A DNA stretch of 64,000 bases from Schizochytrium sp. TIO01 (Eukaryota > Sar > Bigyra > Thraustochytrida > Thraustochytriidae). The notes under the pieces are model-generated. The model made no database searches and was not told the origin of the DNA. It saw only the letters and a list, made by a program, of their open reading frames with translations. Each line of letters opens with the position of its first letter. The stretch's first letter is position 1. Shown piece after piece: positions 44,356 to 64,000 of the stretch. The DNA lies in contig SMSO01000025.1 of assembly GCA_004764695.1 (NCBI GenBank), positions 5,076,362 through 5,140,361 of the forward strand, in the 5' to 3' direction. Both the position numbers and the translations under genes were made by a program.

Positions 44356-47300
44356 ATGTCCTTTAATTTTGGAGGAGTGAATGCTTCAGGAACAGAGTCA
44401 GCCCCGCCAGAGCGATCTGAAGGCAGCGTGCCATCATCCTCAAACTCCACATCTACCTCAGGGTTTAGCTTTGGCAATAGCGGCAACGTTGGCAGCGACG
44501 GCAGTAGAAATGAAAGTGGTGGTGAAAACCCATTTAGCCAGAGCGGTAACTCTGCCTCATTCGCCACCCCGACACCGCAACCGAGGTCTCCCCAGGCTGG
44601 GAGCTCAACGAGGCCAGCATTTACTCCATTCTCAACTTCAGCTCCATCAACGCCCGAAAAGGGATTTTCACTAGTCGGAGGGTCCACACCTGCAAAGACA
44701 AAGAGTCCTACTAGTACTTCGGCTCTTGTCGTACCTAGTGGGGATTGTTCTGAAGAACTCTGTGTGGATGATGTCCTCAAAATCCTCGGCCTGGAGGATC
44801 AAGGCCACGACTGGTTCACGACGGAAGCTCTAGCACTTGCGTGCTCGGGTGAACGTTTGGGTGGCATGCGCACAAACACAGAGCTTGAAAATGACGACAT
44901 TGAAACCTACTTCCCAACAGCATCGCTCGTACAGCTCCTGAACGCTTTTCCAAGGCGGCCAAAGTCAGAGATTGAGGCTGACAAAACACTATCAACCACC
45001 GCTCCCTCCAAAACTCGTACTAGTTTTGTCGATGAGGTCTGTCAGCGCCTAGACCTCAGCAACAGTGCAGGTCGTACTCTCGTGGCAAGATTCCTTGCGA
45101 GCAATGAGGAGGTGGGACTCGGTGTAAGGAGAGCTAACGCTCGCAGGCGCGAAATTCTTCGTGTAGTTCGTCGCAGCAGTGCAAAGCGCGGCGCTGTAGA
45201 GCAAGCACTGGGTAATGTGCGAACTTTTGCCGAACTCGACGCGATTGACTCCGTTGTAGGTCTAGTATCTCTTAACGCCGAACGCTTCCGCGCAACACTG
45301 CAGGCAGATGTGAAACTTGCTCGAGACAATAGCAACGAGATTGTCTTTGGCCTTTGCAAATCAGAGGCCCTTCTCAAGGATGTAGAACGACGTTTTCAGA
45401 ATGAACAAGCTGCACTACTCAACACCATGGTTCTCATGGCAAGGGCAGCTGATGACAACGACAACAAAGCGAAAAGTAATGAGATTTGGCATAACTTTGC
45501 GGTTCGATTTGTTGATGAGCAATGCGAGACTGTCATGGACCACGTGCTTTCCACCTTAGAGCGCAAAGACCTGTCAGACACTCTCGAAAAACTTCTTCTC
45601 AGAATTCTTTTTCACATGCCTGTCACAAAGGAAAAGAAGCTCGCGCTTCGCCTTCTTAGGTCTAAACGCACTAGCCTTATCACACGCGTACCCTACATCT
45701 CTCGTGTTCTTGTACTCTTGTCAAAGCTACGCGCTGGCTATAGTGATGATCTCAAAGAAGCCGTTGAGTCCTGCGGTGCCCCCGCTATTAGTCTTGCGTG
45801 GTCTATTTTCGCAATTGATGGAGACCTTTTCGAATCTAGCTACTCAAGCGGTTTTGAAGATCTTGAAAACATCCGTCGCCAACCCGAATTTGCGGGCCCG
45901 CTTCGCGACATTATTATCTCTGGTATGGAGAATTTTGGCATTCATGAGTTACTCGACAACGAAAAAGACTGTATCTTTATTGCCAAATTATGCGCCACCA
46001 CATTCGCTACTTCGCCAGAGGATTGCGACTTTTTCTGGCGCGAAGAGAACCATCCGCTTCGCAAACTGCTTGAGCAGTTGCAAAATTACCCTAGTGCATT
46101 CCTGGAGCTCTGTGGCGCTCTTGTCTCAAGTGAAAATAGCGCAAGGTATGCGCTGACCTACGTTGGCAAGAAAATCCGCCTTGAGAACCTTGCTCTACTC
46201 TGCAATCTTGTCAAATACCTTGATTACGGTACTATCGCAAGCTTTGACATCATGACGACCACGAGAAACGTAGTTCGTAGCCACATCAATGACCCTCGTC
46301 TGGTGGAAACCCTTCGCAATATTGCAGAAAAATTCCCGCAACATGTTCTAACAGTCTTGGCAAATGAAGCAGACCAATCATCTACATTTCCTGTTCTCAC
46401 AGCCATGCGTCGTGAGCTCGAAAAGGAAATAACTACTGGCAAATACTCTGGCCTTATGAATGGACTGCATCTCATAAGCATGCTCGTTCTCCAAGTTGAG
46501 CGTGAGCACTATTCCTCTGAACTGCATGTTGCCTTTGAAGACGCTGGCACGCATTGTACGCGTGCTGATCTGTCTCGCAATCTCAATGTTCTCGGCTACC
46601 GTGGTGACATTGATATTGCGACGCTCAGGAAACTTGCGCCATCTGACTCCCCAGATGAAATCGATCTCAACCGGTTGTTGCAACTTCTTCGAGTCGGCGA
46701 AGGCTCTTTTTTTCGTGTTCTGAGTCTTACTCTTCAGGGTCGCCGTTCGCAAACCAAACAGTTTGTTTTTCAGGCCGTCAAACTCGTCCGCGAGGTTTTC
46801 CGCAGCCATCGTGGGTGGCGTTTCTCTTCTCAAAAACAACGCTGGGACATTGGAACTCAGACTACCCATATTCTCCACCGTTGCGTCGAGATGCCTTTTG
46901 AGCTTGATGGTGTGCGTGCTAAAGTAATGGACGACCTCATGAACGATACCGCCACTCAAGATGCTCTCAGTGCGAACATTTTTTCTCTCAAGATACCGCG
47001 GGCTACATTTGCTCAAGAACTTGTTGCCACTTCACTAGACCTCTTAGCTGGCGTCCTGAGTCTTGAAGGCTTTGGAACTCAAAAAATTACGTTGCTTTGC
47101 CGCCAGGATCTTGCTGCTAATGTGGCTTCATATATTGGTTTTCCCTCCGAAAGCGACCGGATTACATGCGAGTTTCCCTTGCAGCGCTTGGCAGTGCGAG
47201 TCTTAGAGAACTTTGTTGTATCTTTGGATGCCTTTCGGCGTGCACGTCATCAACAAAAAGCCTCAGGAGGTGTACCTAGTGTAGTTGCGATGCTCTCGAA

Positions 47301-50300
47301 GTCTGCAATGCTTTTGGATGATGTGGCAACTTCTATTGCTAATGGAGAAACCTCCACGCTCGGTCTTCTAACCACATCCCTTGAACTTGAGCCTGGCCTT
47401 GCGGCTATGCTTCTTCAGAACGATGCCATACTCGAGAATATTCTTGACATCCTGCGTGACACGTCTAATTTTGAGGAGTGCCCGCGCCTCTATCTGATGG
47501 CAATGGAATTTCTCGGTACTCTCTGGTATAAACGCTATACATCTATTATTGCCCGACTCTTGGAACTGGAACCAAAGTTCTGGACGCATATGTCCTTCAG
47601 TTTGTACCAAGACATTGACGAGGATATGCTTCTCAGCTCCACCCCCAAGGTGATTAATGCGCAAAAGAATCAGATTTGTGCCAGAGCATGGGCGCTCGAA
47701 ATTATGACCCTAGAAATGGAGACAAGTGGAGTTGGTGGGGCATTCATGGAGCTTATGCGTGACTTGCGCAACGAAGATCGAGATACTAGCTGGCTTAATC
47801 AGTACCCTGTCGCAAGTGTCTCCCTCCATCGAAGTGAAACTCTCTCCGTTGAGTCTTCCAGCGTAGATCTTTCTGCTTTCGTACAGAACCATTCTGGATT
47901 TGTTACACCAAACTTGGACCCGTTCTTGTTCGAACGCCGTCAGTCACGCTTCGGACTGGTAGCCTGCCAGCAGTACGACGTTGATATGCTTCAACGCGTT
48001 TTCCCTGGCGAGGAGACTCTCGCGAAGGAGGTACGTTCGCGCAACTGTGCATTGGCTCTTTCCGAAGCCCAGCTTATGCTATTGCGTGCATGGAAAACCT
48101 ACATGGAGACCCGCTGTTTGATCAGCTGGGAGGATCAACCTAATTCGCCGAGTGATCTAAACACTCCAGTTGACGGTAGCTTTGAGTCCCCGGGCACGCG
48201 TCGTAAGCGCTCTTTTAGCAACACAGAATCCAAACATTGGGGAGATGTTACTTCGTACACACTAGTTGCCAAATTGGCTGCTAACCTTCGCGAGGCAGAA
48301 GACCTTGGTAATGAACACCAACAGTGCTATCTTCGCGAGGTTGTTGAGATGTTCACATCAATGCTGCATTTTAAGATCTTTGAACGTTGTCAATCTTCGG
48401 ACAACAGCATGTCTTCCCTGCTTTTGGATGCACACGCATTCATTCCCCAGGGCAACTTTCGTAAGCGCTCTCGTGAGATACGCGGTGACAAGCTTGTGCT
48501 CGATAGTGATGATTCTGAAAGACCAGGTGCTGTCCAGCTCATTGAACGGATTTTTGACTGCCTGGTGAAGATTCTCGAATTTGCTGAGAATTCATCTGTG
48601 GACACTGCAAGCAAGTCTCGTAGTTTTGTTCTGGAGGTAGTGCGCTCTTTGCTTGCTGGTCTCTTAATGCTGTTTGAAGTCGCCGGAGATGATGAAGCTA
48701 ACACCCAGGCTTCGGCAAAGCTTGCTGAGAAGCGTGTTGGCTCTCTTGAGCCTCTGGCAAAGATGCTTACACGGTATGCAGACGAAACCGAGATTGTTGA
48801 CCTGTGTTTGCCGCTGCTGAGCTTAATTATTTCGGAACTTACAAAAAGCAATGCTGCTGCCATGAAAACCTTGGTTGATCAACAAGTCTTCACCCTCTTG
48901 CAAAAGACATGCATTCAATACTCAGAAGCTTTTGGTCGCCGGTATGCTGATCGTCAGGGTCTCTACATATGGCTTGAGCGCAACGGTTTGAGCGACCTTA
49001 GTGTCAAAGTTCTAAGCGCCACAACGCCCTCCAATGCTACCAAAGGCAATGAAGGGCTTGTTGCTTCTCTCTCTCAGAATAACGACGAAGGTGAGTACAG
49101 CGGTGCCGCATCATCCACCGCTCTTGTAACAGCTGATACGTCCTCTTCACTTGCACTTACGACCGTTGATGAAGAAGATGCATCTGATTTTGAAGCAAAG
49201 GAACAAGCGAAGCGTGATACGAAGCAAAAAGAGAATGAAACTCGCTTGCGCGAGATTGCTCGTCAGCTCGGTTACAAACATTACGAATTACGATCGAAAC
49301 ACAGATCATCTCGAAATTACCGTGATCTTGTAGGATCAAAGGCATCTGGCTATTCCGATGAAGACGGATTAGTTGACATTAGTGTGATTCGTTTGTTTAT
49401 GGACTTTGGTATTACGAGTGTCAACGAGTTGCGAACTCTCGACCACGCAGCATTGCAAGAGATGGGTATCTATAAGCCATCGGATCGCCGTCGTCTTTTA
49501 GATATTATTGACCAACGTGACGCATCCGGATTGACTGGAATTTCTTCTAAAAGGCAAACTGTAGGACCTACTTCAGGTCGGTCTGGGGATGAAAATGACG
49601 CCACAAAGCGTAAGCCTATCTCACGAAAGGTTGGTTTTGAGGCTGCTCAAGAACTCAAGCGCGGCCTCTTGCGGATCCAGATGATTCTCCACATTTTTAA
49701 CTCCGCAGTACTCGTGGACCAAACTACTGTGGGTGCTCACCTCGCACGCCTCAATGTTCTACGTGGTCTTGCTTCTGATCCGTTGCTTCGCTGTGTTGCT
49801 GGTGATAAGCCTTTTGCTTCAAGCATGGATAACCGTGATAACGCTGCATCGATTGCGTTCCGAGGTTACTCGGTGCAGGGGGAGCGCGACCCAGCCCATT
49901 TAGTATGGTGCGAAGCTTTGCAGCTCACTGCAAGTTTGCTAGAAAGCAATGAGAACAGTAAAGAAAACCGTAACGTTGAGCTTGCACTTGAATTTGTTGC
50001 AAACCACCGAGGTACGATCTTGGCTACATTACAAGCCTATAAACATGCAGATAGTGTCATGACACTTGGAGCACTCGATGAAGCTTTGCGCACAACTAAT
50101 CTTATGCGCGCTTTGTCCAAGCACGTTCAACGCTGGCGGCTCCACGGTGAATTGTATGCACCTTTATTGACTGCAGCTTGGACTATGCTTCATGAACTAG
50201 TTGTCGGTAGTGAAGGCGTCCGCCGTCCGTGCTTTTTGGAAGAGTTTGTGCGCACCTTCTTCACCGGTTCTAAGGCTGTCCCTCGCCTTTGTATTTGCAC

Positions 50301-52264
50301 TCGTCCTGTTACTCCACTTGAAATTGAGCAAGATCGTCAGCCTGTAATGGAGTCTCTGCAGCGCAAACCATTGGTTGGAACACCACGCGCGAGCATGGCT
50401 TTAATGCGTACAGCAAGCGTTGTGGAAGAACTTGAATCAGAACAGGAGGCTCCGGCTTCGTCTAGTAAGGGTGGCGTTGTGTCGCAACTTGATGATGGTG
50501 ATATTTCTGTACTCCATGTAACCATTGAGTATCGTATTTGTACCGTGGTGCAACAACTTCTTGCCCTCTTTCGCTCCAACCAAATTGTGAAGAAGCCGTG
50601 CCAGCTGCAGAGTGACGAACATTCTTCTCAAACGCTTCCAGTGCACGATTGGGGTAAGGCAATGATCCCGTTCCCCCTGGGTCAGGCTACGCTCAGGCAA
50701 ACCCAGCATCAGCACTATCATTATGAGGGGCGCCCTCGATCATATTCAGGGTCTGGCGATGCTAATTTCTACAGTCAAGGGTTGGGCGAAACAAACGACA
50801 TGGGATCTACGCCGAACATTGCGACTCTATTATCTTTGCTAGGTTACACCAAGTATAGATTGAACTTGGCAGCTAACATGGGTGGCAGCGGCTCCTCAGA
50901 GGATCTTCGTCATCCGAGATCTGAACGTTGGCAAAAGATGCTATCATACCTATCTACCAATGCTCTTTACCTTATGCTGAACTCCCTAGAGTTGTCCCTA
51001 CATGAACGTGAGCGCATCAAGGCTCAAGTTATTGACCGCCGTACGGAATCTATTGCAAGCTTTACGTTGAGTGAACATGTTTTTGACTATCTGCAAAAGA
51101 AGGCATGCGAAGGTAGTCAGAAAATCTGTCATTTCATGAACAAGCTCAACGGCAGCGAGCCCCGTAATTCAGAGATTGTGGATTTGCTCAGTGAAAGAAT
51201 TAAGGATACACTCCAACAATTCGATGTCCGTGCTGATGAGTCATTGTCTAGTGAGCGCAACTTGCAACCAACGATGGGACGGGAGATCCCCAATAATCAC
51301 AGCAAAACTCTGGCCCTCGTTGAGAAGCGCGGTCCATCGGAAATGGATAGCATCGTTGAATACCATTCAGAAAAACGCTTTCGGTTGGCGATGTCTCGTG
51401 AGGTCAGGATATCACACTATCCGACGCATGCTGTAGTCATCTGGATACCAGGCCCTCAGGATCACCCTGCATCTTGGGAGGCTATCTTCAGAGATTTTGG
51501 TATGCCACATGTTCATTTCATTATTCCCGACCTTTGCACAGAATCAGTTGACTCTAGCATTGCTCCTGGCCTAGATGAAACGCTTCTCCTGCCAGGTGGT
51601 TCGAAGGTCATTCAACGCGTGCTAGCTGAGGCAGCTGAGGAGATGAATCGCTTTCACGCGATGGAAAAGAAGGGCCCATCGAAGCAATCATCCAACTTGT
51701 CGTCATCTTCCTCTCAAGCTCGCGTGGCGTCAAGGAATTCTTTTCCTGCTCTCCGCGAGCTTTTCGCGCTGATCACCGCGCGGTACGAAGACCGTGATTT
51801 GGTTCTGGAGGCCGCCCGGTACGTGTGTGACATAGTTCGTGACCAAAGGGCACGAGATATTTCCCCCTGGAAAGATCTTGTTAGGTGGTTTCCAAACTGG
51901 TGGAAGTTTCGCTCTGCTTTGCGCGTTACTACTTGCTATAGATCCTGATCCAATTGTGGTTGGAGCGGTTTCTACGATCAACTCTTATCTCCCCTTGGCA
52001 AGCGAACTGTGTGACTCTCTTCTTCATTCTCTGTTGACGAAACCGCAGAATCAGAGGCTCCAGTTGCCAAAAATCATGATGCGCAACGGAGCTTTAGACA
52101 CTAATGTAAAACCTGAATTGGCCGAAGTGACTGCTCGCGCATTGCATGCAATTGGAGCAAGCGTTAACTTTGATACAGCTCAAAATTTGGATCACTCACA
52201 GTGGACACTGGATGAAATGAAGCTTGTGTGGGAATCCTTGTTACAGATTATGGAAACAAAATAG
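44356..52264 (+). CDS. Giant Nup188/Nup205-like protein with SAM-like segment and C-terminal thioesterase-like domain (frameshifted)
   Basis: One frame runs from the ATG at 44356 to a stop at 51948 (2530 residues); the protein-like sequence then continues one base out of phase to a stop at 52264, about 2635 residues if the shift is ignored. Residues 1-130 are Ser/Thr/Gly-rich with FG-type pairs (SFNFGG, GFSFGN), as in nucleoporins. A helical region of about 1500 residues follows, resembling the large inner-ring scaffold nucleoporins in length and in segments such as GWRFSSQKQRW; this call is moderate. About 1672-1732 looks like a SAM domain (VDISVIRLFMDFG, LQEMGIYKPSDRRRLLDII). The last 260 residues match acyl-protein thioesterase/LYPLA hydrolases: AVVIWIPGPQDHPASWEAIF, then, in the shifted frame, ILLGGFQTGGSFALL, NGALDTNV and LDHSQW. 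The nucleophile Ser of GFSQGG is Gln here, while Asp and His positions remain. The shift sits at C5, 51863-51867. Confidence 0.55.
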
Positions 52265-57580: not shown

Positions 57581-59530
57581 ATGGATCCAGACTTGCTGGC
57601 TAAAATTGCAGGTGATACTAGTCTCGCGGAAAAGCTAGCAGGGTTCCTTGGTACGAAACCCGCAGAGGAAAAAACTACCAAGGTGGAAGAGCAGAAACCA
57701 GTATCTCGAGCAAAAGTGCTGCAAACTGCAAAGCAAACTGAATCGGCAGGTGATAAATCGAATGTGCCTCAGCTGAAGAAACAAATTTGCAGGAGCGTTT
57801 TAGACCCACAAAGACTATTTTCCTTGACAAATAAGGGTTTCGGTTGGTGTGTCGTGGATGGTGCACTAGAGACCAATGACTGCGATGCACTCTGTGCTGC
57901 GATTCGTGATCGAGGCCCAGGTGACCTTCGTGAAGCTCAGATGGGTGCGCAGAAACAATGGAAAGATGATTCATTTAGATCGGATCATATCGCATGGATT
58001 ACAGCTGCCTGGGACCGAAATACAATGTTCTCAGCAGCATTCCGTGTCTTAAAGGAACTTCAGGCTCAGTTACGCAATTATTTCCCTCTGTCAGACCGAG
58101 TTAGTATTCAGCTAGCGTATTACCCGGCTGGTTCGCGGGGTTATGTAAAGCATCGCGATACAGAGCGCCAGGGAGAGGAAACGAGGATGATAACTGCCCT
58201 CCTCTACTTAAACCCAGGGTGGGATTCAACAAAAAATGGAGGTGAACTTCGTATTTATTCTCCAAATGAAGAAGACCCGCATGATGTTGAACCATCAGCG
58301 AACAAGTTATTGGTCTTTCAATCGCATCTAGAACATGAAGTTCTTGGGTCTCGAGATCGCCCTCGATGGGCAATTACGTGCTGGTTTTATGGTATTGAAT
58401 CCACTTCCACCAAAGTAGAAACTGCCACCGATACACCTTTGCAATCCCTAGGTTTGGTGTCTGCAAGTTCATCTACAGCTAAAATTTTTGTAGCTATACC
58501 TAGCTACCGTGATCCTCTATGTGCCAGAACAGTAATCTCCTTGTTGTCCTGTGCAGATCATCCAGATACTATTCGTGTTGGAATCTGCTGGCAAAATGAG
58601 ATTGGCGCAGCAAGCGAATTCTATGGTTCAAGCGAGCACGAACAAGCTCAGTTTATTGAGTATATAAAGAATGGTCAGGTCCGCGTAATCTCGCTTCCTT
58701 CTTCTGAGGCAACTGGCCCTTGTACTGCCCGCGCCTTAATTCACAAGACTTTGTACTGTGATGAAAATTTCGTGCTCAATGTTGATTCGCACATGCAATT
58801 TTTGCAGAGTTGGGACACTACTCTAATCAATTTACTGCATCAGGCAGAATCACAGTCTACCTTTGGGAAGGCTGTCATTTCGACTTATCCGGCTGGCTTC
58901 GAATTTGACTCCAATACAAACACTGTTTCTCTTCCGCACAAAGAGCTAAGTCTTACTTCATTGCACATTTTGACGGCCCCAATTCTCAAAGCCAGCCATT
59001 TTGATGATGAGGATTGCACGCTGCGCATCAAGGCCTCGCGTGGCGGCTGGAAAAGCTTTGCAACAGTGAACGCTGATACGAATTCTCAAGAGCCAAATTC
59101 CCAGTCAGGAGATGCCAACTTGGTGGTCAAGTCGCAGTTGCTTGCAGGTGGTTTTAACTTCTCTCGTGCCGAGACTATGATCTCTACCGTTCCGTACATC
59201 AACGTCCCTCATCTTTTCTTCGGTGAAGAATCTGCTATGGCCGCTATGTTGTACACACATGGTTTTGACCTTTTCTGCCCTCTTAAGGATGAGGTAGTCT
59301 TTCACTTGTGGAGCCGAGCGCATAGACAAACCTTCAAAAGCCCTCCACTTGCAAGACTCGAGGCTTCGAGAGCCGTCGCGAACGCCCTGGAAGAGGCGTC
59401 AGGTCACTCTACGTTGCTCCGAGTTGGCTCGCGCCGCTCCATGGCCGCCTGGGAAGCGGAAATTGGTGTCGATTTTAGATTGCGCAAGATCCAACCGTCA
59501 GTCGAGAGCGACTCTACCACGCAACCCTGA
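57581..59530 (+). CDS. Bifunctional Skp1-type prolyl 4-hydroxylase / hydroxyproline GlcNAc-transferase
   Basis: Predicted 649-residue soluble protein with no signal peptide or membrane segment, starting at ATG 57581. N-terminal half (about 80-280): 2-oxoglutarate/Fe(II) dioxygenase of the cytosolic prolyl 4-hydroxylase type. Iron ligands are H191 and D193 in KHRDTE and H252 in LEHEV; R264 in RPRWAIT should hold 2-oxoglutarate. C-terminal half (about 300-640): glycosyltransferase of the Skp1 hydroxyproline GlcNAc-transferase (Gnt1, GT60) type, with FVAIPSYRDPLCARTV, VGICWQNE, ATGPCTARALIHKTLY, the metal-binding DSHMQF (402-407), ISTYPAGFEF and the late FGEESAMAAMLYTHGFD. In Dictyostelium these two steps act in turn on one proline of the SCF subunit Skp1 and couple oxygen to development. 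Here one gene would do both. Substrate is inferred. Tandem with NUS1, 322 bp apart. Confidence 0.85.
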   Translation: MDPDLLAKIAGDTSLAEKLAGFLGTKPAEEKTTKVEEQKPVSRAKVLQTAKQTESAGDKSNVPQLKKQICRSVLDPQRLFSLTNKGFGWCVVDGALETNDCDALCAAIRDRGPGDLREAQMGAQKQWKDDSFRSDHIAWITAAWDRNTMFSAAFRVLKELQAQLRNYFPLSDRVSIQLAYYPAGSRGYVKHRDTERQGEETRMITALLYLNPGWDSTKNGGELRIYSPNEEDPHDVEPSANKLLVFQSHLEHEVLGSRDRPRWAITCWFYGIESTSTKVETATDTPLQSLGLVSASSSTAKIFVAIPSYRDPLCARTVISLLSCADHPDTIRVGICWQNEIGAASEFYGSSEHEQAQFIEYIKNGQVRVISLPSSEATGPCTARALIHKTLYCDENFVLNVDSHMQFLQSWDTTLINLLHQAESQSTFGKAVISTYPAGFEFDSNTNTVSLPHKELSLTSLHILTAPILKASHFDDEDCTLRIKASRGGWKSFATVNADTNSQEPNSQSGDANLVVKSQLLAGGFNFSRAETMISTVPYINVPHLFFGEESAMAAMLYTHGFDLFCPLKDEVVFHLWSRAHRQTFKSPPLARLEASRAVANALEEASGHSTLLRVGSRRSMAAWEAEIGVDFRLRKIQPSVESDSTTQP

Positions 59531-61015: not shown

Positions 61016-64000
61016 TCAAAAAATTTCGAGGATGCTTGCCCAGAGTGCAGAGAGTGGAGCAAAATGGTTCGCTTCTTGAGAGCGCTGTACAACTGCCTGC
61101 TCTAGGTGCTGAAGCATCTGCTCATGATTGCGTTCGCTGACAAGGTTGAAGCTAACTTTGCATGAGTCAGAATCGAGAGGGTAGCTCGGCAGAATCTCAA
61201 AGGCCACCTGGACGACGGCACCCACGCCGCCATAATAGATTTCCGCAGAGAACTGCATGCTACCGTCCTGACGAGCAATCAATTGACATGGGTATGTCTC
61301 ACTTTGGCAGATCTGTGAGATCTCTTCCCAAAGGTCGTTTAGTCTGCCAAACTCGACATCTAGCTCCAATAACGCATCGGGGATACACGAGGGTGGTGCA
61401 CCACGCAAACGGTTTCTCAAAGCAGCAACAGTGTTTGCGACACGGGAGGTTGTAATCTTCACAATTGACTTTTCGATATCCGACGTTGCACCAGAAAGAT
61501 TAGAGGCATTTTGACTAGAGTCTGTTGATGAAGCATCCCCAAGAACATGCTGGACTGAAAAGTCGCTCACACTTGGCTGAAGATCAAACAATAATGTGAT
61601 TAGTTCGAATGATCCATCAATTTGGTCTAAAGCAACCTGCACCATTGTTGCGTTTGCATGATGGAGTCTCCAAACATGCAAACCCTGAGCAACATCAAGA
61701 ACAGCATTCTTTGATTCAAAGTCCATTTCAGCTTGGCGCTGAGCCTGCAAAGCTGCTAAACTATCCTTTGCCCCACGCAAACGAACGTCTTGGACGTCCC
61801 GTGCACTTTGAACGCGGGATAGCTCCTTACTTGCAGATGCGGAGCGCTCTTCAAGCTGAGCGATCTCCTCTTGGTAGCCTTCAATCACCTCTCGCTGCTC
61901 CATCAGAGCCTCGATAAGTGAGAGCAGACGCTCAGCTGCCGAACTAGCTTCGCCAACTTGACTTTTTGCAGCCTCGAGGCGTTGCACACCATCACTCACA
62001 ATACTGATATCCTCGTTTAAGATAGTCAGGTGCTCCTCCAACGCCTGCAAAGAGAGATTGATACCCTTGGCTTCAATGTCGCTCCAAGAGACGCTTGCCT
62101 CGCACTCTGCTTGTTTTCTCAACGTTGCAACAGCCGACTTTACATCAAGGGTAACTCCTTCGGATGCATCGATTTGTAAAAGGCTAGGCTCTCCGCGCTC
62201 AAATGTTGTTGCAAGCTCTTGGATTGTCTGCTGAGCTAATAGTGCGCGATTTCGCGACTCGTTACATGTCCATTTTTGGCCCAGGATATCTGCTTGAAGC
62301 ACGCATGCGCGAGTGAGTTCTATTTCTTGAACTTTTTGGGCCTCAACCTGAGGGTCTTCCACAATTTCTTGACTCGGATCCTCGGCATCGCCTAATTCTT
62401 GTTTCAGAAGGGACTCAGAAAGAGGCACTTCACAATGATCAAGAAATTCAAGAACAGATAGGGTCCGTGTTTCCGTACTTTGTAATGTTTCTTCTTCTCC
62501 TTCTTGGTTGTCTTCTTCAGCAAGATCTTTAATGGCCTCAGCTGAGGATGAAGGAGTTGGCGGCTGCTTCTTCTTGGATGCCGAAGTGTTGTCTCCGCTT
62601 TCGGAAGTATCTTGCATTGCGTGATCAGCAGTAGGAGACTGATCAGTTCCTGAATACTGATTTTCTTCGTCTAGTTCAAGAGGCGTCCGTGCCAGCGTAC
62701 GTTGCGTCTTAAACGCTTCAGGCGTAGTTTGTTCAACTTGTTGGTCCTTTTGTTTTTCAGGGGTCATTTCCATTCCGGTTGTTGATGAATAAGTATCTTG
62801 GCTCAGTGATGCAGAGGAAGTATTGAGGACATCTGGTGAGGGTGGTGTCTGGAGACTTCCGGTGCTGGCTCGGCGCGACTCGGTTGCTGCAGACTTTGTA
62901 GATCCAGTGCTTGCACGGCGAGATTTACTTGCCGGGGTTTGTTCAGAGGTTGTAGATCCTGGAGAGTTCATAAAACCATCAAGTACCGCGGCAGAATCAA
63001 ACTGCAGCTTTGATTTGTCCTTCTCTTCATTTTTTTCAGAGGACTGGTTCGAGGAAGACCCTATCGAAGAGAAGCTAAGACGCATATGAGGTGACTTCTT
63101 ATTTTCAGAATCAACCTCGTCTGAAGTGTGGTCGACCCTATTTTCTTCCTTGGACGATGTTTGCTTGCTTTGAGCGCTACTGCGGCGAGATGATTGTCTC
63201 CCTTTCGGTTCCTCAGGTGTTGTTGGAGTTGCAGGCGTTGCAGGCGTCGCAGGTGTTGCAGGAGTGCCAGGTGAGAACGCTGCAAGGTCAGCTAGATCTC
63301 CTAGTTTTTGGGTGCGTTCCTCTGAATGGCCATGTGACCGCATCGATGGAGAGTGAGAGTTAGATGATCCAGGGGTCATCATAGCAAGTTCTGAAAGATT
63401 GCCGAGCTCAACGGTTTGTTCTTCCGGCTTACGAGAAACAGTCGAGACCATGGACTGGCGTCTAACAGACCTTTCGTCAAAAGGCTCAGAGGAGAATGAC
63501 ATATTGGCCAAATCCCCAAGTTTACCAAGCTCGACTGTGCGCTCGCCAGAAGAAACTGGTGAATGTTGTTGTGAATGACGCGAACGTGGAGTTCCAGGGT
63601 CACTCTCAGGAGACATACGTGCAAGCTGAGACAAGCGCCCCAGCTCCACGGTGTGCTGCGGGGAACTTGTACTTACATCTTGCATTTCCACATCTCCATC
63701 TTCACTGGTGAAGCTCTTTTCAATGAGACGACTACTGTTTGTAGTATCACCATCATTATCATTCTCGCTGTTCTGACTATCAATCCTTTGTCTGGCATTC
63801 CGAGGTTCCTCAGGTGTAAATGAGGCGAGGTCCTGTAGACGACCAAGCTGGACTGTTTGATCTTCTTTGTGAGTGTTAGTGTTTATGCTGTTTGTGGCAC
63901 TTGCAGTACTCTGGATAGATGACAAACGCCGACGACTTCTCGTGTTATGCGCTGGAGACTGCCCTGTAAACGGTGAGTCAGCTCCCAAATTCGCCAAAAT
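61016..64000 (-). CDS. KNL1/Spc7-like kinetochore scaffold, 5' end beyond the window
   Basis: At least 994 residues are visible; the frame is still open at 64000 and no start ATG is seen, so the N-terminus (where KNL1 proteins usually have PP1-binding motifs) is missing. Numbering here is from 63997. Five copies of a unit reading TVELGxLxxLAxM then S/T-P or S-F occur at about 48, 116, 154, 195 and 229 (e.g. TVELGRLSQLARMSP, TVELGNLSELAMMTP). A sixth, partial unit (LANLGADSPFTG) lies at the window edge. They sit in the region and spacing where KNL1 has MELT repeats. An ATP repeat (245-259) and a Ser/Thr/Glu-rich stretch follow. About 540-770 is coiled coil (ALMEQREVIEGYQEEIAQLE). About 770-993, starting near LHVWRLHHANATM, could be an RWD-type Spc7/KNL1 C-terminal domain. 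The family assignment is moderate. Confidence 0.6.
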   Translation of the reverse strand: MLANLGADSPFTGQSPAHNTRSRRRLSSIQSTASATNSINTNTHKEDQTVQLGRLQDLASFTPEEPRNARQRIDSQNSENDNDGDTTNSSRLIEKSFTSEDGDVEMQDVSTSSPQHTVELGRLSQLARMSPESDPGTPRSRHSQQHSPVSSGERTVELGKLGDLANMSFSSEPFDERSVRRQSMVSTVSRKPEEQTVELGNLSELAMMTPGSSNSHSPSMRSHGHSEERTQKLGDLADLAAFSPGTPATPATPATPATPTTPEEPKGRQSSRRSSAQSKQTSSKEENRVDHTSDEVDSENKKSPHMRLSFSSIGSSSNQSSEKNEEKDKSKLQFDSAAVLDGFMNSPGSTTSEQTPASKSRRASTGSTKSAATESRRASTGSLQTPPSPDVLNTSSASLSQDTYSSTTGMEMTPEKQKDQQVEQTTPEAFKTQRTLARTPLELDEENQYSGTDQSPTADHAMQDTSESGDNTSASKKKQPPTPSSSAEAIKDLAEEDNQEGEEETLQSTETRTLSVLEFLDHCEVPLSESLLKQELGDAEDPSQEIVEDPQVEAQKVQEIELTRACVLQADILGQKWTCNESRNRALLAQQTIQELATTFERGEPSLLQIDASEGVTLDVKSAVATLRKQAECEASVSWSDIEAKGINLSLQALEEHLTILNEDISIVSDGVQRLEAAKSQVGEASSAAERLLSLIEALMEQREVIEGYQEEIAQLEERSASASKELSRVQSARDVQDVRLRGAKDSLAALQAQRQAEMDFESKNAVLDVAQGLHVWRLHHANATMVQVALDQIDGSFELITLLFDLQPSVSDFSVQHVLGDASSTDSSQNASNLSGATSDIEKSIVKITTSRVANTVAALRNRLRGAPPSCIPDALLELDVEFGRLNDLWEEISQICQSETYPCQLIARQDGSMQFSAEIYYGGVGAVVQVAFEILPSYPLDSDSCKVSFNLVSERNHEQMLQHLEQAVVQRSQEANHFAPLSALWASILEIF

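Follow-up and report, generated by a model that had tools for sequence, protein, structure and literature searches.

Results

Organization of the fusion gene

One long reading frame on the forward strand of the window (the whole stretch of 64,000 nucleotides that was analysed) encodes a protein in which a prolyl 4-hydroxylase (P4H) is joined to a GT60 GlcNAc-transferase. Its features are as follows.

57581..59530, + strand: P4H and GT60 GlcNAc-transferase fusion, 649 aa (single ORF, Pfam matches on both halves)
57833..58405, + strand: PHD-type 2OG-Fe(II) prolyl 4-hydroxylase domain, residues ~85-275 (PF13640, PDB sequence matches to EGLN1 and Dictyostelium PhyA (DdPhyA), fold match)
58151..58159, + strand: iron-binding HxD motif with H191 and D193 (both invariant in the alignment with two P4H paralogues)
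58334..58366, + strand: H252, the third iron ligand, and R262, the Arg that binds 2OG (alignment; +10 spacing)
58406..58471, + strand: short Met-free linker, residues ~276-297 (ORF translation)
58472..59500, + strand: GT60 (PF11397) GlcNAc-transferase domain, residues ~298-640 (Pfam)
58784..58792, + strand: DSH motif, residues 402-404 (both D402 and H404 invariant across the alignment of 38 sequences)

The frame starts with an ATG codon, is preceded by in-frame stop codons, and continues for 649 codons without a stop, compared with 228 codons for the longest open frame among 50 mononucleotide shuffles of the window. Methionine residues occur at positions 1, 121, 149, 203, 405, 533, 553, 556, and 621 of the protein, and codons 203 to 405 have no intervening ATG. 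Because of this methionine-free stretch and a linker of only ~20 residues, the transferase half does not have an independent ATG start. The fusion of both domains in one frame is confirmed, and a PHD-type P4H and a GT60 transferase in one polypeptide are the composition of a Skp1 PhyA-Gnt1 dual-function enzyme.

Hydroxylase domain

The Pfam model 2OG-FeII_Oxy_3 (PF13640) matched residues 177-270 (E = 3e-21; 76.6 bits against a cut-off of 27). H191, D193, H252, and R262 were invariant in the alignment of the window P4H with two P4H paralogues; the iron triad HxD...H and the 2OG-binding Arg are those of PHD-type P4Hs (PhyA/PHD2). In DdPhyA, the counterparts of the third ligand and the Arg are H266 and R276, with the same +10 spacing (PMC7864055). 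The domain scored 69 bits with EGLN1 and 62 bits with DdPhyA when compared with PDB sequences.

The full-length model was built with the 38 GT60 rows only, and its P4H half was not confidently predicted. The P4H domain was also considered as a separate model, which was folded with 3 sequences and was of moderate quality (mean pLDDT 65.5). In a Foldseek search with this model, DdPhyA (6t8m) had the highest identity among the matches listed, the best 50 (29-32%, compared with 23-27% for PHD2 and 27-29% for the Pseudomonas enzyme), and the Pseudomonas enzyme was at the top by fold E-value among the same matches. Structure prediction of both halves, as proposed in the preliminary description, gave a P4H fold like that of PhyA/PHD2 at this quality, but not a confident P4H within the full-length model. 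The window P4H is likely to be a PhyA orthologue.

The genome examined comprises 64.06 Mb in 37 contigs, and all locus counts from the genome searches are lower bounds. At least three further P4H-like places were found. L003 is a separate PHD paralogue that scored 115 bits with EGLN1 and 71 bits with DdPhyA in the PDB sequence search; compared with the 69 and 62 bits of the window P4H, it is more EGLN-like. L006 is a remote P4H (31 bits with the Pseudomonas enzyme). The third is a P4H-like match at G000:C30:4097865-4098152 (E = 6.1e-6) inside a 714-codon frame. Any of the three predicted P4Hs could act on Skp1.

Transferase domain and its GT60 relatives

PF11397 (GlcNAc), which we take to be the Pfam model of GT60, matched the transferase half in two stretches, the better of which covers residues 350-585 (E = 1.5e-43; 150.1 bits against a cut-off of 21). 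Dictyostelium Gnt1 is the prototype of the enzymes for this GlcNAc step. The DSH motif presumably corresponds to the metal-binding DxH of the transferase, and the predicted GT-A fold, related to ppGalNAc-transferases, together with such a DxH motif is that of GT60. The preliminary description had claimed an uninterrupted frame at 57581..59530 with a 2OG-Fe(II) dioxygenase (H191, D193, and H252) and a GT60-type transferase with a DSH motif. The frame proved to be intact (649 aa, ATG, no internal stop), the named residues are present, both Pfam matches lie above their cut-offs, and the profile search suggested there for the transferase half returned GT60.

No transmembrane (TM) segment is predicted in the fusion protein, in which the highest Kyte-Doolittle 19-mer value is 1.19. 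At least six GT60 loci occur in the genome, namely that of the window and five paralogues. In the frames read, four of the five paralogues have an N-terminal hydrophobic or TM segment; L014 lacks one, like the window protein. An alignment of 38 rows (the window protein, the five paralogues, and 32 of 80 viral loci) was used for an unrooted tree, in which the five paralogues grouped together (98/89), the 32 viral rows grouped together (89/87), and the window protein, a long branch of unusual composition, was placed between the two groups. The missing signal anchor and the separation from the Golgi-type paralogues are features of a Skp1-type Gnt1, although the separation is to be taken with reserve because of the long branch. 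By path length in this 38-row unrooted tree, the nearest rows to the window GT60 are viral. Viral contigs (IMG/VR) commonly carry GT60 relatives, with at least 564 confirmed among at least 600 matched stretches, and 80 loci were kept (L038-L117).

Searches for the fusion in viral and prokaryotic contigs

The whole fusion protein as a query, which reaches close relatives only, gave no match in viral contigs. A P4H near or fused to a viral GT60 was found in none of 943 frames (at least 80 aa) in the 80 loci, as judged with a 3-sequence profile that may be insensitive. With the P4H alignment as query, there were 12 pattern matches in viral contigs and 32 in prokaryotic genome contigs, none of which was a confirmed relative. 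Since bacterial PHDs exist (4iw3), this search is too narrow to show absence.

Skp1 acceptor genes

Three Skp1 genes are clustered within ~5.7 kb (L026 2931-8621, G000:C33), and a 300-codon frame sits between the first and the second. Skp1-2 and Skp1-3 are 43-44% identical to Skp1-1. The aligned Pro is present in all three Skp1 genes found, and it lies in a TPE context in two of them. Skp1-1, the best conserved of the three, carries NDFTPEEE; the context is NLTPEQD in Skp1-3 and LPEGDD in Skp1-2. A Skp1 with an acceptor Pro in the TPE context is therefore encoded in this genome, and the conserved Pro near the C terminus, for which the preliminary description had advised a search, was found. 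The NDFTPEEE context is that of the modified Skp1 peptide of Toxoplasma (PMC11570480). Mammalian Skp1 has a glutamate at the acceptor position in our alignment, and human Skp1 is likewise described with a glutamate at this site (PMC7864055). The changed context of Skp1-2 may be set beside the title of the Pythium paper discussed below, which mentions differentially modified isoforms.

Candidates for the later sugar steps

At least three GT8 loci occur in the genome, one of which is Gat1-like (L024 2510-3487, G000:C13). Its best PDB match is the Skp1 alpha-galactosyltransferase 6mw5 (E = 2.2e-49), and the best glycogenin match lies far behind (E = 5.9e-22). The L024 protein has a serine-rich insert close to its N terminus.

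At least five GT2 loci were found. L035 is a TM-free frame of 751 codons with GT2 in its C-terminal half; the ~370 residues N-terminal to GT2 gave no Pfam match, and a GT74 domain is assigned to this part by position only. The domain order of Toxoplasma PgtA is GT74-GT2 (PMC6939170), as it would be in L035. A second TM-free GT2 frame, L033, has 443 codons. The fusion protein (57581-57700) and the PgtA-like L035 protein each begin with a short stretch (DLLAKIAGDTSLAEKLAGFLGT and DLAALIASFVGT, respectively) followed by low-complexity sequence. The stretch of the fusion protein, DLLAKIAGDTSLAEKLAGFLGT, is modeled as helices with low confidence. The two N-terminal stretches are possibly a shared docking element.

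Among at least six GT32 loci, L030 is the only one of those found without a TM segment. A TM segment is predicted in all five of the GT77 loci found (at least five in the genome); hence no candidate for a cytosolic enzyme of the AgtA type (Dictyostelium) was seen. The Gat1-like GT8, the PgtA-like GT2, and the TM-free GT32 are, as far as sequence can tell, homologues of later enzymes of the Skp1 pathway.

A JmjC-GT32 fusion

The TM-free frame of L030 (679 codons, - strand, around 1084963-1085094 of G000:C13) encodes a JMJD6-like JmjC domain (PDB 3k2o, E = 1.4e-46) followed by GT32. No F-box family was found in it by a Pfam scan at E 0.1. JMJD6-like F-box proteins interact with Skp1 in Dictyostelium and Toxoplasma (PMC9485057, PMC11570480); the co-occurrence of JmjC-GT32 with the pathway is therefore suggestive. 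L030 is a candidate for the enzyme that adds the fourth sugar in the Skp1 pathway, here joined to a second dioxygenase, and its proposed link to Skp1 lies in its family and its missing membrane segment. Glt1 is assigned to GT32 in PMC6939170, whereas PMC8724618 prints its family as GT31. A JmjC domain fused to GT32 or Glt1 was not among the matches listed in our literature search, which is thin on subscription papers, and the available text of PMC9485057 mentions neither GT32 nor Glt1. The JmjC-GT32 protein as a query gave 21 pattern matches in viral contigs, none of them confirmed.

Other features of the window and the genome

A 993-codon frame at 61016-63997 (- strand) of the window contains repeated TVELGxLxxLA units and had no Pfam match at E 0.001. 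To us, these units are reminiscent of the MELT repeats of KNL1/Spc7 kinetochore proteins. A 2530-codon frame at 44356-51948 (+ strand) matches Nup188 below threshold (22.4 bits; cut-off 24.3). Elsewhere in the genome, two long frames of 1031 and 2172 codons at G000:C4:608161-617209 encode a PfaA-like polyunsaturated fatty acid synthase, in the middle of which several matches overlap. It scored 1157.4 bits against a cut-off of 1010.1 (with neighbours in frame), which none of 14 control genomes exceeded. Thraustochytrids have PfaA-type PUFA synthases, and the locus found here is in keeping with such an origin.

Discussion

The gene very probably encodes a cytosolic bifunctional Skp1-modifying enzyme of the PhyA-Gnt1 type, as in Pythium ultimum. 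The P4H domain, using O2, 2-oxoglutarate, and Fe(II), would hydroxylate the Pro of NDFTPEEE near the C terminus of Skp1, and the GT60 domain would then move GlcNAc from UDP-GlcNAc onto this hydroxyproline. The PgtA-like protein, the GT32, and the Gat1-like GT8 would add the other sugars and so complete a Toxoplasma-type pentasaccharide, which would tune the assembly of the SCF ubiquitin ligase to O2. The acceptor Skp1 and the putative homologues of the later enzymes in the genome lend support to the Skp1-pathway reading already given in the preliminary description. The fusion may make hydroxylation and GlcNAc addition processive, as also suggested for fused enzymes in PMC8724618.

Sequence alone leaves the substrate of the P4H unfixed, and with L003, L006, and C30:4097865 as other P4H-like places, the fusion could be real and yet act mainly on another cytosolic protein, while a separate PHD such as L003 hydroxylates Skp1. 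However, the P4H partner suggests that this GT60 acts on a hydroxyproline, and in Toxoplasma and Dictyostelium the acceptor of Gnt1 (GT60) is the hydroxyproline of Skp1 (PMC6939170). Moreover, L003 is EGLN-like rather than PhyA-like, and an acceptor Skp1 is present. We consider a main substrate other than Skp1 to be unlikely.

With five other GT60 loci in the genome, four of them with an N-terminal TM segment, a Golgi-type mucin-initiating GT60 might have gained a hydroxylase domain. This origin is highly improbable, because the fusion protein has no TM segment, the five paralogues group apart from the window GT60, and PHD-type enzymes are nucleocytosolic. That the frame wrongly joins two neighbouring genes, or stems from an error of assembly or annotation, can be rejected almost with certainty on the 649 open codons and the missing ATG from 203 to 405, together with the ~20 residues between the domains and the published precedent for the fusion.

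Bifunctional Skp1-modifying enzymes of the kind proposed here are known. The Pythium enzyme of van der Wel et al. is reportedly named Phgt and is said to act on Skp1 after expression in E. coli. The name Phgt together with Skp1 gave no match in our literature search. The title of van der Wel et al. names both activities as one dual-function enzyme on differentially modified Skp1 isoforms, and the organism is Pythium ultimum, a plant-parasitic water mould (oomycete; PMC7864055), probably another organism than that of the present genome. According to this title, PhyA and Gnt1 activities are combined in one enzyme there, as is predicted for the protein described here. According to a review, enzyme pairs of the Skp1 pathway are often fused in protists (PMC8724618). 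Because a dual enzyme is already in print, the present fusion is a further example and the arrangement is not new.

Dictyostelium PhyA (6t8m) is, like the window P4H, a PHD-type P4H with HxD...H, an Arg at +10, and a similar fold. However, PhyA and Gnt1 are separate proteins in Dictyostelium (PMC3515798), as the preliminary description had it, whereas they are fused here; DdPhyA ends directly after the last core strand (PMC7864055), where the transferase follows in the fusion protein. For the Toxoplasma pathway of PhyA, Gnt1, PgtA, Glt1, and Gat1, candidates of the same families are present here (a PgtA-like protein with C-terminal GT2, GT32, and GT8). In contrast, PhyA and Gnt1 of Toxoplasma are separately deleted genes (PMC11570480) rather than a single fused gene, and the candidate GT32 here is fused to a JMJD6-like domain, unlike in Toxoplasma. 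Phytophthora and diatoms are among the groups with pathway-like genes (PMC3515798). Thraustochytrids together with Skp1 were not found among the matches listed in our literature search.

More speculatively, and at best as a tentative possibility, O2 might be read twice by fused enzymes. The P4H-GT60 would gate the first sugar, and L030 would be the fourth-sugar enzyme, with its dioxygenase half gating the completion of the chain or hydroxylating Skp1 or a partner. If this were true, two dioxygenase-transferase fusions would make the length of the glycan itself a record of O2. The JMJD6-GT32 fusion is the least expected piece of this study and offers a concrete new hypothesis of a second O2-dependent step.

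With the P4H-GT60 gene, a type of fusion reported from an oomycete extends to a further genome. Given its thraustochytrid source, the fusion may have arisen early among stramenopiles, and a marine protist that is aerobic and can be cultured could serve as a model for O2-linked control of SCF.
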